Positions 12,291 through 16,254 of a stretch of DNA of 34,909 nt are shown here, piece after piece; position 1 is the stretch's first letter, and each line of letters opens with the position of its first letter. The stretch is from the NCBI GenBank assembly GCA_027858235.1, contig JAQIDC010000027.1:1-34909 (forward strand). Direction: 5' to 3'. The notes under the pieces were generated by a model, which saw only the letters and a program-made list of their open reading frames with translations, did no database searches and was not told the origin of the DNA. The translations under genes were made by a program, and so were the position numbers. This DNA comes from Patescibacteria group bacterium. GTDB taxonomy: Bacteria; Patescibacteriota; Patescibacteriia; Patescibacteriales; BM507.

Positions 12291-12719
12291 TCAGAACAAT
12301 TTTGTTGTCTGGGGCTTTTCTTTTTCACCTTGCCATTTTATATAACGTCTGACCTGTTCCTCGTTTAGGCCTACTGTTGACGAAAAATATCCCACACTCC
12401 AGATGCCGTCCCAATCGAGGTACATTTCACGAATGAATTTAAATTTCTTCCTTAGATATATGCTAGAGTTTGATTTTAATTTTTGGACGGCCTCTGACAC
12501 GGCCATATTTGGTGGTATTTCTATTTGCAAATGGACATGATCTTGATCTGTGTTCACGATATAGATATGGAGTGTGGGATATTTTTTTACAGTATTAAAA
12601 AGACTAGTGATTAGTTCATCTTTAACATAATCTTTCAACCATTTTCTACGGTGTTTCGTGCCCCAGACTATATGATATTGATGTTTGTATGCACAGTGGC
12701 TTAGACTTTGGATTCTCAT
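12291..12719 (-). CDS. tnpA: IS200/IS605 family Y1 transposase TnpA
   Basis: Single-strand DNA transposase of the HUH class, 142 aa. It carries the HUH motif 'HVH' (61-63) in 'TDQDHVHLQIEIPP', and the catalytic tyrosine Tyr126 with Gln130 in 'VRRYIKWQ'. N-terminus 'YHIVWGTKHRRKWL' and 'GYFSSTVG' are family typical. The frame is intact, so it may be active. No TnpB accompanies it. Near its stop a hairpin (AAGCCCCAGA pairing TCTGAGGCTT with one mismatch) could end the transcript. Confidence 0.93.
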   Translation of the reverse strand: MRIQSLSHCAYKHQYHIVWGTKHRRKWLKDYVKDELITSLFNTVKKYPTLHIYIVNTDQDHVHLQIEIPPNMAVSEAVQKLKSNSSIYLRKKFKFIREMYLDWDGIWSVGYFSSTVGLNEEQVRRYIKWQGEKEKPQTTKLF

Positions 12720-12909: not shown

Positions 12910-14817
12910 CTATTTCAAGTTATTCAATTCTTCAACGTAAACATCTATTTTTTCTTGCCATTCATCATCTATTTCTAACTCTGGGTAAAGATATGATCTA
13001 AGACCGTGATAGAATCCATATGTAACAAATATATAGCTTTCTTTCTCATCACTTGAGACATGCAAATTACCCTCATCAAACTCTAGATCAATGCTATCTT
13101 TATGCTTTATATGCGAGTATACATTATCTCTCTTCTCTACTTTACTGAGAACATCCCCCTCTATCGAGCTACTTGCATATGATATAGATAGCTCCTCCAT
13201 TCTAAATTCTCTTTCTTCGGAGGTAATTATGGAAATTTGATCCAACCAATGTTTCTCTGTCCAGATTATTTTTATTCTCAAGGTACCACTATTCGTATTA
13301 TCTATTGCCTCTTTTAAACTTATGTAGGAATCAGTTTGTAATTCACGAGGGTGAACCATACTATACTCTTTATATTCACCGTTTTCTTCAAAGAAAATAA
13401 TGAAAGAAGCTCTAGCGCTTGCCTTATTTGGATCTGGAATTATCGGCAACGGGGTTGATCCCCATGAGCTCAATGAAAGATAAGTTTCTTTATCTTTTAA
13501 ATCTCTGATATCAATATTAAGCTCAATATAATCATCCAAATTTGCATATAAATTTTCATTGTCTTTTGAGCTTATTTGAGATAGACACTCAATCCTTTCT
13601 GAAGTTTCTTTAAAAAAATAGCAAGAATTAACAAGGCCTTTTTCTTCCATCTTTTTTATTGTCTTGATGTTATTACTTCGATTTTCTACTATTAATTCAG
13701 AATCTTTATTATGTAGAACCCTTATCAGTTTTATTTCATCAAAATGAGATTCTTCTGGCTCCATTTCTTTTATCCTTAGCTTTAATTTACCGTCCTCAAT
13801 ACTTGGATTATTTGACAAAATATAATTATCAACTGGTCTATTCCTTCTTTGACTATCAATACTACTAAAATCGTTTAATTCTAAAAGTGAATTTTCATAA
13901 TAATCAACTGCTTCGTCATAAGTATTCCCCCAGAATGTTGCCAAGACATCATTTTCGATAAAGTAATTACCAGATATATTAGCAAAAAGATATGGAGTAG
14001 AACCACAATCCTCAATCCAGTTTATACTTCTACAATAATTATTAAAACAGTCATAAGTAACGCGTTCAAGGGGGACAGGACAAGTAATTATATTAACAGA
14101 TGCGATATAATTATTTGTATTACACTCAGAATCCAAAGTACACACACCCGGCGATGATACTACTGATGGTGTTTCACAGCCAACCGAGCCATCTGAATTT
14201 ATAGCACTAATGAATTTCCCAGCTGTACAAGAATCAACAACCCTTCTCTGAACAGAATCTACATCAGTATCAGTATACAACAAACTTCCATCTTCAATCT
14301 CACTAGTTCCCACTGCCCCTTCTACAATCTCAGAAGAACCAACAGAATCAGCCGCAAGCTCAGAGCTATCTATTGATCCATCCTCAATACGATCTCCATT
14401 CAACATCCCATTTAACCAACCAGGGATTGTTAAATTCCCAGTATCATCTATATTCATGATTTCACTTCCATCACTATAAAATCGATAATAATCATCTGAA
14501 TCGCTATCATCATCAATAGTAAAATTCATCCCCCAACCTTTAGCATCTATATTAATAGAACCATCAGCAGCATTCAAAACATTAGAATAAATTTCACCAT
14601 CAATAGTTAAATCTAGAGATACGTCTAAATCATTATTAACAGTTAAGGGACCGTTCTTTGTTTGGCCTGCAAGCCCAGTATTAATTGGTGGATCTATATT
14701 CCCTCCAGGAGGTCCAACACTCGGTGCCGACCAAGAAGCAAAAAGAGATTGTAGGGAGATAGAAAGCCCAAGAACCAATACTATAGTGATAATAAATCTA
14801 AGTTGAGATTTTAACAT
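12910..14817 (-). CDS. Large secreted surface protein, Patescibacteria-type N-terminus, unknown
   Basis: 635 aa. Signal peptide (hydrophobic 8-26) ends near 'LFASWS'. Next come 'SAPSVGPPGGNIDPPINTG' (30-48) and 'GPLTVNNDLDV', a pattern I associate with surface proteins of this lineage. Residues about 55-135 look like a short beta 'collar', then 'RIEDGSIDSSELAADSVG', 'SSEIVEGAVGTSEIEDGS' form 8-10-residue repeats like those in tail-fibre or adhesin stalks. A cysteine-rich patch follows (about 193-270; C-x-D-S-E-C). The C-terminal 350 residues are charged and globular, unknown to me. Monocistronic, with its own promoter and a very strong terminator. Adhesin or stalk is inference. Confidence 0.8.
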   Translation of the reverse strand: MLKSQLRFIITIVLVLGLSISLQSLFASWSAPSVGPPGGNIDPPINTGLAGQTKNGPLTVNNDLDVSLDLTIDGEIYSNVLNAADGSINIDAKGWGMNFTIDDDSDSDDYYRFYSDGSEIMNIDDTGNLTIPGWLNGMLNGDRIEDGSIDSSELAADSVGSSEIVEGAVGTSEIEDGSLLYTDTDVDSVQRRVVDSCTAGKFISAINSDGSVGCETPSVVSSPGVCTLDSECNTNNYIASVNIITCPVPLERVTYDCFNNYCRSINWIEDCGSTPYLFANISGNYFIENDVLATFWGNTYDEAVDYYENSLLELNDFSSIDSQRRNRPVDNYILSNNPSIEDGKLKLRIKEMEPEESHFDEIKLIRVLHNKDSELIVENRSNNIKTIKKMEEKGLVNSCYFFKETSERIECLSQISSKDNENLYANLDDYIELNIDIRDLKDKETYLSLSSWGSTPLPIIPDPNKASARASFIIFFEENGEYKEYSMVHPRELQTDSYISLKEAIDNTNSGTLRIKIIWTEKHWLDQISIITSEEREFRMEELSISYASSSIEGDVLSKVEKRDNVYSHIKHKDSIDLEFDEGNLHVSSDEKESYIFVTYGFYHGLRSYLYPELEIDDEWQEKIDVYVEELNNLK

Positions 14818-14848: not shown

Positions 14849-14877
14849 ATTATAACATTATATATCATGTAGCACAA
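14849..14877 (-). promoter_or_regulatory. Promoter of the 635-aa secreted protein gene
   Basis: Minus strand: TTGTGC (14872-14877), 17 bases ending TGT, TATAAT (14849-14854). The -35 lies inside a small block of the heptamer repeat found again at 15154. Confidence 0.75.
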
Positions 14878-14887
14878 AACATGTAGC
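14867..14887 (-). repeat. Three inverted heptamers of the 15154 array
   Basis: Reverse complement reads GCTACAT GTTTTGT GCTACAT, three units of the heptamer family in opposite orientation to the main array. Confidence 0.85.
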
Positions 14888-14916
14888 ATCGAATATAGTG
14901 AATATTGTAATTTGCA

Positions 14917-14967
14917 CCCCAGAGCACCCTCTCTTACTTCGTAACGACCCAGGTCGGCCTCTCTCAC
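14917..14967. repeat. Repeat family E, copy 2
   Basis: Shares CACCCCAG, CTTCGTAACGACCCAGGTCGG (split here: palindrome CGACCCAGGTCG at 14945-14956) and CCTCTCTCA with the copy at 8721. No coding potential. Confidence 0.7.
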
Positions 14968-15010
14968 TTTATCATCTCGAGCTTATCTAATTAATAGTTT
15001 TTTTCATCTA

Positions 15011-15148
15011 TGTCATCTTGAGCGAAGTGCTAACGTGGCCGAAAAATCCCTTTTTGTTTTGACTAAAATATTAATCATATTCCCAAAGGGATTTCTCAAT
15101 TTCGCTCCGCTACATTCCCCGCATGCTGACGGGGCAGGCGAAATGACA
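15011..15148. repeat. Repeat family B, copy with TGTCAT/ATGACA ends
   Basis: Begins TGTCATCTTGAGCGAAG and ends GCGAAATGACA, so the outer ends are inverted. Inside, AAATCCCTTT (about 15044) pairs with AAAGGGATTT (15085-15094). Together with the E repeat and the array it fills the 14818-15336 gap, which holds no gene. Confidence 0.7.
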
Positions 15149-15153
15149 GGTAT

Positions 15154-15342
15154 GTTACATGTTTTGTGTTACATGCTACATGTTTTGTGTTACATGCTAC
15201 ATGCTTTGTGTTACATGCTTTGTGCTATGTGTTACATGTTTTGTGTTACATGTTTTGTGTTACATGTTTTGTGTTACATGCTACATGCTTTGTGTTACAT
15301 GTTCTGTGCTATGTGTTACATGCTTTGTGTTTTGGGTTACAT
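15154..15342. repeat. 27-unit heptanucleotide array
   Basis: The 189 bases divide with no remainder into 27 heptamers starting at 15154. GTTACAT occurs 12 times, GTTTTGT 5, GCTTTGT 4, GCTACAT 3, GCTATGT 2... with single variants GTTCTGT and GTTTTGG making the rest (counts by eye; one class may be off by one). All fit GYTNNNK. GTTACAT occurs every second or third unit, giving 14- and 21-base higher-order periods. The last unit overlaps the stop codon of the VanZ-QueH gene on the other strand. Confidence 0.92.
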
Positions 15343-16254
15343 GCCCCTCCTCTTCTCCGCATCAGCCAAAGAAAACTCGCAACCACAATAATCCTGTCTA
15401 TATAAGTCTAGTTTTCTGGACATTTCGGCTGCTTTTTTAAATCCGTCTTGCTTTTTAAAGTCTCTTTCCAAAAAACCAAGCTCGTACTTACGTCCCAAGT
15501 CTTGACCAAATTTCATAATTGCTTGAGCATTTTTATGAGGGCTTGTTGTTAAGGTTGTAGCAAAATAATGAAAACCATTTTCAGAAGCATAACGAGCAGT
15601 TTCCTCCAATCTTTCTCGATAACACATCATACACCTCTCTCCCTTTTCCGGGTCAGTCTCATGACCACTAACCATTTCTCTCCATTTTTTATGATCATAG
15701 CCACCGATGATAACTTTTATTTTATACATCTTTGCCACTTTTTTTATTTCTTCGAGTCTCTTTTCATATTCACGTAAAGGAAAAATATTTGGATTATAAA
15801 AATATAGAGACACCCTAAACTCTTTCCTTAAAACCTCACTCACATAAACCCCACAACCAATACAACAAATATGTAGGAGCAAGCTTGGTTTAGGAGAATT
15901 ATTTATAAAATAGGCATAAAGCATAGCTAGTGCTGCTCCAGCAATTCCAAATAATAAATCATACTCATCAACTGTCCTTCCCGGAACATAGGCCTGAACT
16001 ATTTCGAGAGAGAAAGAGTAGAGAGAAGAAAATAGAAAAGCATACTTTAAGGCACTCAAAAACTCCTTATTCTTGTCAATTAGTAAATATTGAAAAATTA
16101 AATATGCAAAAATTCCAAAAAGAATAAAATGAACTCCTTTATCATAATAAGTTATTTCGTGCGTTTCAAACTCTTTCATGGGAAAAGTTAAAAGAATAAG
16201 GATCAATAATCCCCAAAGAAAGGTGTACAACAATTTAGAACTCTTTTTTTTCAT
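15337..16254 (-). CDS. queH: Fusion of VanZ-like membrane domain and epoxyqueuosine reductase QueH
   Basis: 305 aa in two parts. Residues 8-116 are a VanZ-like domain with four helices and its full signature: 'YYDKGVHFILFG' (36-47) and 'SLEIVQAYVPGRTVDEYDLL' (82-101). Residues 124-305 are a complete QueH, which reduces epoxyqueuosine to queuosine in tRNA: 'LLHICCIGCG' (Cys130, 131, 134), 'FYNPNIFPLREYEKRL', 'CMMCYRERL' (Cys208, 211), and 'YRQDYCGCEFS' (Cys290, 292), the Fe-S and iron ligands. No frameshift separates the parts; the linker is only 'INNSPKPS'. It starts directly after the stop of the WecA-like gene (TAAATG), so translation is coupled. Its stop TAA comes from the adjoining heptamer repeat. 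Confidence 0.9.
   Translation of the reverse strand: MKKKSSKLLYTFLWGLLILILLTFPMKEFETHEITYYDKGVHFILFGIFAYLIFQYLLIDKNKEFLSALKYAFLFSSLYSFSLEIVQAYVPGRTVDEYDLLFGIAGAALAMLYAYFINNSPKPSLLLHICCIGCGVYVSEVLRKEFRVSLYFYNPNIFPLREYEKRLEEIKKVAKMYKIKVIIGGYDHKKWREMVSGHETDPEKGERCMMCYRERLEETARYASENGFHYFATTLTTSPHKNAQAIMKFGQDLGRKYELGFLERDFKKQDGFKKAAEMSRKLDLYRQDYCGCEFSLADAEKRRGM

Follow-up and report, generated by a model that had tools for sequence, protein, structure and literature searches.

What is an exactly phased array of seven-nucleotide units doing between two genes of a Patescibacteria genome, and where did it come from? The array lies in the 34,909-nt stretch of DNA analysed here (the window), which is contig 27 of a 72-contig, 1.43-Mb genome (Table 1). 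An earlier note, made from the letters alone, had described 189 bases that divide into 27 heptamers without remainder, nearly all beginning with GTT or GCT and drawn from a small vocabulary. The division is exact, all 27 of 27 units begin in one of these two ways, and seven words occur: GTTACAT (11 copies), GTTTTGT (5), GCTTTGT (4), GCTACAT (3), GCTATGT (2), GTTCTGT and GTTTTGG (1 each). Columns 1 and 3 of the heptamer are invariant, and columns 2, 5 and 6 are two-base mixtures related by transitions. The higher order of 14 and 21 bases that the note had seen is also present: self-match values are 0.59, 0.70, 0.80, 0.62 and 0.75 at lags 7, 14, 21, 28 and 35, respectively (approximately 0.16-0.40 at the remaining lags), and TRF detects the array with periods of 14, 21 and 35. 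None of the 26 pairs of adjacent units is identical, and the eleven copies of GTTACAT never adjoin (P ~0.001 by word shuffling). Thus, if the array grew by slippage, it did so by blocks of at least two units.

All three plus-strand frames are open, as previously described. The minus strand is the sense strand of both flanking genes and contains stops in every frame (8, 3 and 5). A coding repeat is therefore excluded, as the array is intergenic and its sense strand is closed throughout. The minus-strand words are of the AYRNARC type (ATGTAAC, ACAAAAC, ATGTAGC, ACATAGC). One stop codon per unit was considered as a general design and dropped; it fits many sense-strand AYRNARC words, but not, for example, GGGAACA. 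Rfam and tRNA scans of the window returned no matches.

Table 1. Positions of the repeat arms and neighbouring features in the window.
Feature	Positions	Strand	Remarks
Y1_Tnp (IS200-like) transposase gene	12291..12719	-	CCCCGGG-type hairpins in flanks, REP/RAYT-like; no heptamers in flanks
635-aa ORF	12910..14817	-	No Pfam match; next gene on strand; ORF start 43 nt from short arm
Short inverted partner arm	14860..14887	-	GCTACAT GTTTTGT GCTACAT plus degenerate GATATAT, on minus strand
Spacer between arms	14888..15153		No detectable IVP remnant
TGTCAT...ATGACA palindromic repeat inside spacer	15011..15148		Different repeat family, probably nested; read from sequence
27-unit heptamer array (long arm)	15154..15342	+	Consensus GYT-N-Y-R-T; AYRNARC on minus strand, the mRNA-sense strand
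VanZ-QueH fusion gene	15337..16254	-	Pfam QueH 1.9e-65

The three inverted heptamers that the note had placed about 270 bases away, at 14867, are real. These units (14867-14887, extendable to 14860) lie 266 nt from the long array, and the pair occupies the junction between queH and the gene for the 635-aa ORF. There is no rRNA in the window. The stop codon of queH (TAA, 15339-15337) falls inside the terminal heptamer of the array, and the encoded protein ends shorter (EKRRGM) than its 74% identical counterpart in the sister species G001 (EKRRKARESK), which lacks an array at queH. The palindromic family found in the spacer was also seen at the gatC-gatA junctions of five other genomes (G009, G013, G032, G039 and G047; loci L273, L286, L285, L297 and L287, respectively), and is a second palindromic family in the same gene-junction niche as the heptamer elements.

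The words of the array are not private to this locus. The genome-wide count of GYTNNNK heptamers that the note had proposed gives 56 matches to a four-unit pattern against 2 for the reversed pattern, although these matches overlap and many come from the window array alone. A profile scan identified approximately 30 separate arrays in a 358-kb sample of the genome, with 0 in a Markov control. In a scan of periods 2 to 30, period 7 accounts for 65 segments; outside the multiples of 7, no period has more than 27. Other genomes have 28 (G011) and 22 (G015) period-7 segments; in G015, as in G005, runs of N add one count or more to each period. Bulk intergenic DNA shows peaks at lags 7 and 14 in most sampled genomes of the order and coding DNA does not. 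These genome statistics rest on stretches that were partly picked around arrays, and the stretches not so picked (G005, the first three of G015, G020 and G039) likewise show the lag-7 excess. Of the named records that share a 22-mer, those with a group name are Patescibacteria/Buchananbacteria MAGs, from which the host phylum is deduced. The array consists of tandem degenerate 7-nt words of a kind dispersed in intergenic DNA, which is how a heptanucleotide STRR is defined. The note had worried about an artefact confined to one assembly; this is unlikely, because dozens of loci use these words and another species of the genus carries an orthologous pair of arrays. In G039, period-8 arrays were found beside those of period 7, some of them with inverted partners (L085, L086).

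Arrays often form inverted pairs, with AYRNARC words in the 5' arm and GYTNYRT words in the 3' arm; pairs with loops of 0-40 nt were identified in G060, G062, G010 and G011. The five ORF-less stems tested all form long hairpins on folding, with z from -4.5 to -9.5. In a test of RNA versus DNA action by mismatch asymmetry, G.U and A.C mismatches in stems number 100 and 79 (p=0.13). Arrays lie at gene borders: 53 of 155 are no more than 10 nt from a stop codon, where 36 are expected and 48 is the maximum in 500 random placements. Distances from arrays to start codons are also short, but ORF starts are simple calls.

A protein family accompanies these arms. IVP/S23 (PF05635) is the four-helix-bundle protein of 23S rRNA intervening sequences (IVSs), and its genes lie between inverted tandem-heptamer arms. 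Most of the 30 PF05635 loci identified in the order and three further genomes are flanked directly, at start and at stop, by such arms, the words of which differ from one locus to another. Across 70-nt flanks, the mean best lag-7 score is 14.6 for 28 IVP genes versus 7.1 for 1074 control ORFs, with values of 4-6 at the other lags compared (range 4 to 12), and inverted complementarity of the flanks is above the control 99th percentile in 15 of the 28. Because some genomes of this first set had been noticed for their arrays, the test was repeated phylum-wide with 29 IVP genes picked by HMM score alone (161 of 287 genomes carry IVP). Here the lag-7 score is 13.5 versus 3.6-5.3 at other lags, and complementarity is at least 12 in 17 of 29 cases. 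In 9 of 21 cases, against 2.1 expected, the arm words of an IVP gene are matched best by ORF-less arrays from the genome that carries it. Some arms are wholly private, with all nine-mers (25/25 at L199 of G060, 37/37 at L197 of G015) found nowhere else.

Two further observations concern genes beside or between arms. An IVP gene precedes the same oxidoreductase-subunit gene in three families (L186, L187, L198, L267), with different arm words where inspected, apparently reflecting vertical persistence with arm turnover. A gene for an RNA-methyltransferase-like protein (148 aa; L098, 13832-14278) has very long inverted heptamer flanks (complementarity score 56) and is possibly cargo.

The gatC-gatA junction, compared among 30 genomes, shows the repeat in several states. 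It is empty (6-21 nt) in G041, G017, G023 and G033, and contains an IVP gene between heptamer arms in G000, G001 and G031, the last with a stop within the IVP frame. An ORF-less inverted hairpin occurs in G005 (mirrored TTATAAC, CCATAAC, TCATAAC) and, by eye, in G035, G051, G015 and G029. Single arms are present in G006, G024, G045 and G004, and a remnant in G040. In G020 the arms enclose a different ORF, encoding a GxxExxY (PDDEXK_3) protein. Six ORFs of this family were compared; at the gat locus their flanks are inverted to differing extents, and the lag-7 score is not raised. The flanks of the GxxExxY ORFs near gatC-gatA (L275, L276, L277, L289, L296) are seemingly built of words of about 8 nt in this small sample, so that the period may go with the ORF family. 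Of the marks of a MITE (terminal inverted repeats, target-site duplication and a cognate transposase), inverted arms were observed; no transposase was identified, and no target-site duplication was noticed by eye at the gatC-gatA junctions. No relatives of IVP or GxxExxY proteins were confirmed in viral contigs, and no IVP was found among phage records.

We conclude, with a probability of roughly 0.7, that the window array represents one arm of a hairpin element dispersed through the genome; this copy lacks the ORF, and full members carry IVP. The IVP gene with its inverted heptamer arms probably defines a class of hairpin elements. IVP ORFs were identified inside the element at, for example, G000:C72, G062:C24, G039:C18 and the gat junction of G031. 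The window copy has none, and a six-frame hmmsearch of its spacer with the IVP HMM gave no match. Given this spacer and the very unequal arms, membership of the window copy rests on its words, their orientation and its position.

Some of the same features could instead indicate a regulatory array that binds protein or RNA and marks a UTR regulon independently of any mobile element, its 7-nt spacing being read by a protein, possibly IVP itself. Units have invariant positions, arrays at several loci are located by eye in the 3' UTR, after the stop codon and ahead of a hairpin resembling a terminator, and the heptamers of Beggiatoaceae have been proposed as sites for translational regulators (PMC4679880). 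That a single orthologous junction can be empty, carry IVP, lack the ORF or keep one arm nevertheless speaks against a conserved regulon, as do the near absence of clean arrays from the sister species and the variation of words among loci and genomes with pairing kept. We consider this reading unlikely.

Among 60 genomes of the order, the number of heptamer matches, counted with two patterns, correlates with the number of IVP genes (Spearman rho 0.64, p=3e-8). Over 20 family means the value is 0.71 (p=4e-4). Throughout this comparison, phylogeny is handled through the family means alone and the pattern detects only some word sets. None of the 17 IVP-free genomes exceeds 5 matches (median 1), and the median for the 43 IVP-bearing genomes is 15. 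Exceptions are G001, with four IVP genes yet almost no clean arrays, and G010, in which arrays are present and no IVP gene was detected at 90% completeness. Genome size and the number of Y1 transposases are further correlates of heptamer load; in a joint rank regression, IVP has the largest effect (t 3.6, against 2.2 and 1.8 for the other two).

The association with IVP bears on a plain satellite explanation, in which slippage enlarged a short repeat that had arisen by chance at the 3' end of queH, with neither an element nor a function behind it. Tandem arrays of this kind can grow by replication slippage, and the self-similarity at 14, 21 and 35 nt and the inequality of the arms are what such growth could leave. 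This account is improbable, given that about 30 other loci share these words, which also appear in inverted pairs, at gene borders and in other genomes; slippage alone neither copies words to distant inverted pairs nor ties them to IVP genes. The note had proposed slippage with selection or a periodic binding target, and is partly supported: from the lag peaks and unequal arms, multi-unit slippage plausibly made this copy long, but the array is not a free-standing satellite. That the elements are REP-like palindromic repeats driven by a Y1 (IS200-like/RAYT) transposase is very improbable, for despite their palindromic, extragenic character, the Y1 gene in the window and the correlation of Y1 number with load (rho 0.53), the single Y1 gene in the sampled loci has other hairpins in its flanks and IVP is the stronger predictor.

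A hairpin element can be outlined as follows. A full member comprises a 5' arm of tandem degenerate heptamers, an IVP/S23 gene and an inverted 3' heptamer arm that closes the stem. It fills the junction between two genes and usually reaches from a few nucleotides past one stop codon to a few nucleotides ahead of the start codon that follows. Hairpins without an ORF and single arms would be derivatives or remnants of it. The window pair is probably such a derivative, its IVP gene lost or never present, with the right arm probably lengthened to 27 units by multi-unit slippage. By analogy with 23S rRNA IVSs (PMC4990558), the arms may pair as RNA and be cut by RNase III, and phasing by heptamers would allow them to grow or shrink and still pair again in register. 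Copies without an ORF could be deletion derivatives that spread in trans via IVP or another enzyme. The note had recommended a search for a protein with matching tandem recognition, which pointed the right way; IVP/S23 was found as an associated family, whose members may bind the heptamers.

The same architecture recurs at IVP genes of cyanobacterial plasmids. Matches in a plasmid search with the IVP protein were all cyanobacterial (Nostoc, Trichormus, Calothrix, Scytonema, Anabaena and others), and the four-helix-bundle genes include examples with heptamer arms, such as GGGAACA / TTCCCTG in Nostoc (lag-7 mean 22.8, n=11). In an enlarged set of 21 (20 cyanobacterial and one from Bacteroidota, a duplicate Calothrix copy removed), lag-7 averages 17.9, compared with 6.1 around 82 genes of the neighbourhood (p=3e-5). 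Flank complementarity is also above that of neighbouring genes (p=1e-6); some genes of this set use 8-nt units and some lack clear arms. A match from Azospirillum is a 23S rRNA IVS (LSU match 1792-4990 of L313), and its arms are heptamers: CAGAGGA CGGATGA CAGAGGA CGGAGGA on one side and CAGAAGA CGGATGA CAGAAGA CAGAGGA on the other. The IVP family has solved structures, among them XCC0516 (2GSC) of Xanthomonas campestris, a species for which heptamer repeats have been published. Some cyanobacterial four-helix-bundle genes were seen in CRISPR operons (L305, L314, L315): in two species the gene separates cas6 from cas4 (type I-D), and in a type III-B operon it lies between cas10 and a gene of the cmr3 family.

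It is tempting to go further, tentatively and with the odds against us, and to regard IVP/S23 with inverted heptamer arms as one widespread mobile class, in which the protein acts on phased stems and spreads ORF-less copies in trans. The arms of 23S IVSs, together with the heptamers of cyanobacteria, Beggiatoaceae, Bacteroidetes and Xanthomonas, would then all be its products. Heptanucleotide repeats have long been known in cyanobacteria, where they are used as fingerprints. Such repeats were described separately in Beggiatoaceae and Xanthomonas without a known source, and the S23/IVP protein of 23S rRNA IVSs is without a known function. The association ties these two questions together and makes them testable: does IVP recognise or move stems of 7-nt words? 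A family of repeats by which gene junctions are shaped in many Patescibacteria also emerges from the analysis. The window array itself is a degenerate member, and its interest lies in the family to which it leads. We found no literature that joins heptamers to IVP; coverage was mostly of papers outside subscription, and priority is hence uncertain.

Xanthomonas, the source of XCC0516, has heptamer arrays. These GGGNATC words, found there and in Nostoc, were read as sequences that form G-quadruplexes and are unconnected with mobile elements; like the arrays described here they are intergenic and some are inverted (PMC4692102). TAACTGA repeats occur in Beggiatoaceae, Cyanobacteria and Bacteroidetes, with horizontal spread suspected and 'no mechanism is evident' (PMC4679880). 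They resemble the present family as intergenic tandem sets of heptamers beside start codons at many loci, and differ in having one fixed word and in being described as direct repeats. A search of both papers for four-helix and S23 wording gave no match. In the Nostoc trnL intron, the P6b stem is built of the 7-nt words TDNGATT and NNTGAGT (PMC4476775). Cyanobacterial STRRs and this stem share with our elements tandem degenerate 7-nt words and the building of stems from complementary words; the STRRs differ in phylum and in words, those of the window being unlike the sets in PMC4476775 and PMC4692102.

The closest comparison is with IVSs of 23S rRNA. IVS/IVP elements are known in rRNA, for example from Coxiella burnetii, with function and mobility described as unclear and a selfish origin as suspected (PMC4990558). 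rRNA insertions of CPR bacteria carry IVP ORFs (PMC11270868). IVSs are like the present family in having an IVP/S23 ORF in the loop of a terminal-inverted-repeat stem. Unlike rRNA IVSs, the elements here occupy junctions of protein-coding genes, are present in many copies per genome and mostly lack an ORF, and the window copy, itself without an ORF, has one arm of 27 units and a partner of 3-4 units 266 nt away. Arms built of heptamers are not mentioned for IVSs in the passages of PMC4990558 consulted, but the Azospirillum IVS identified here has them.
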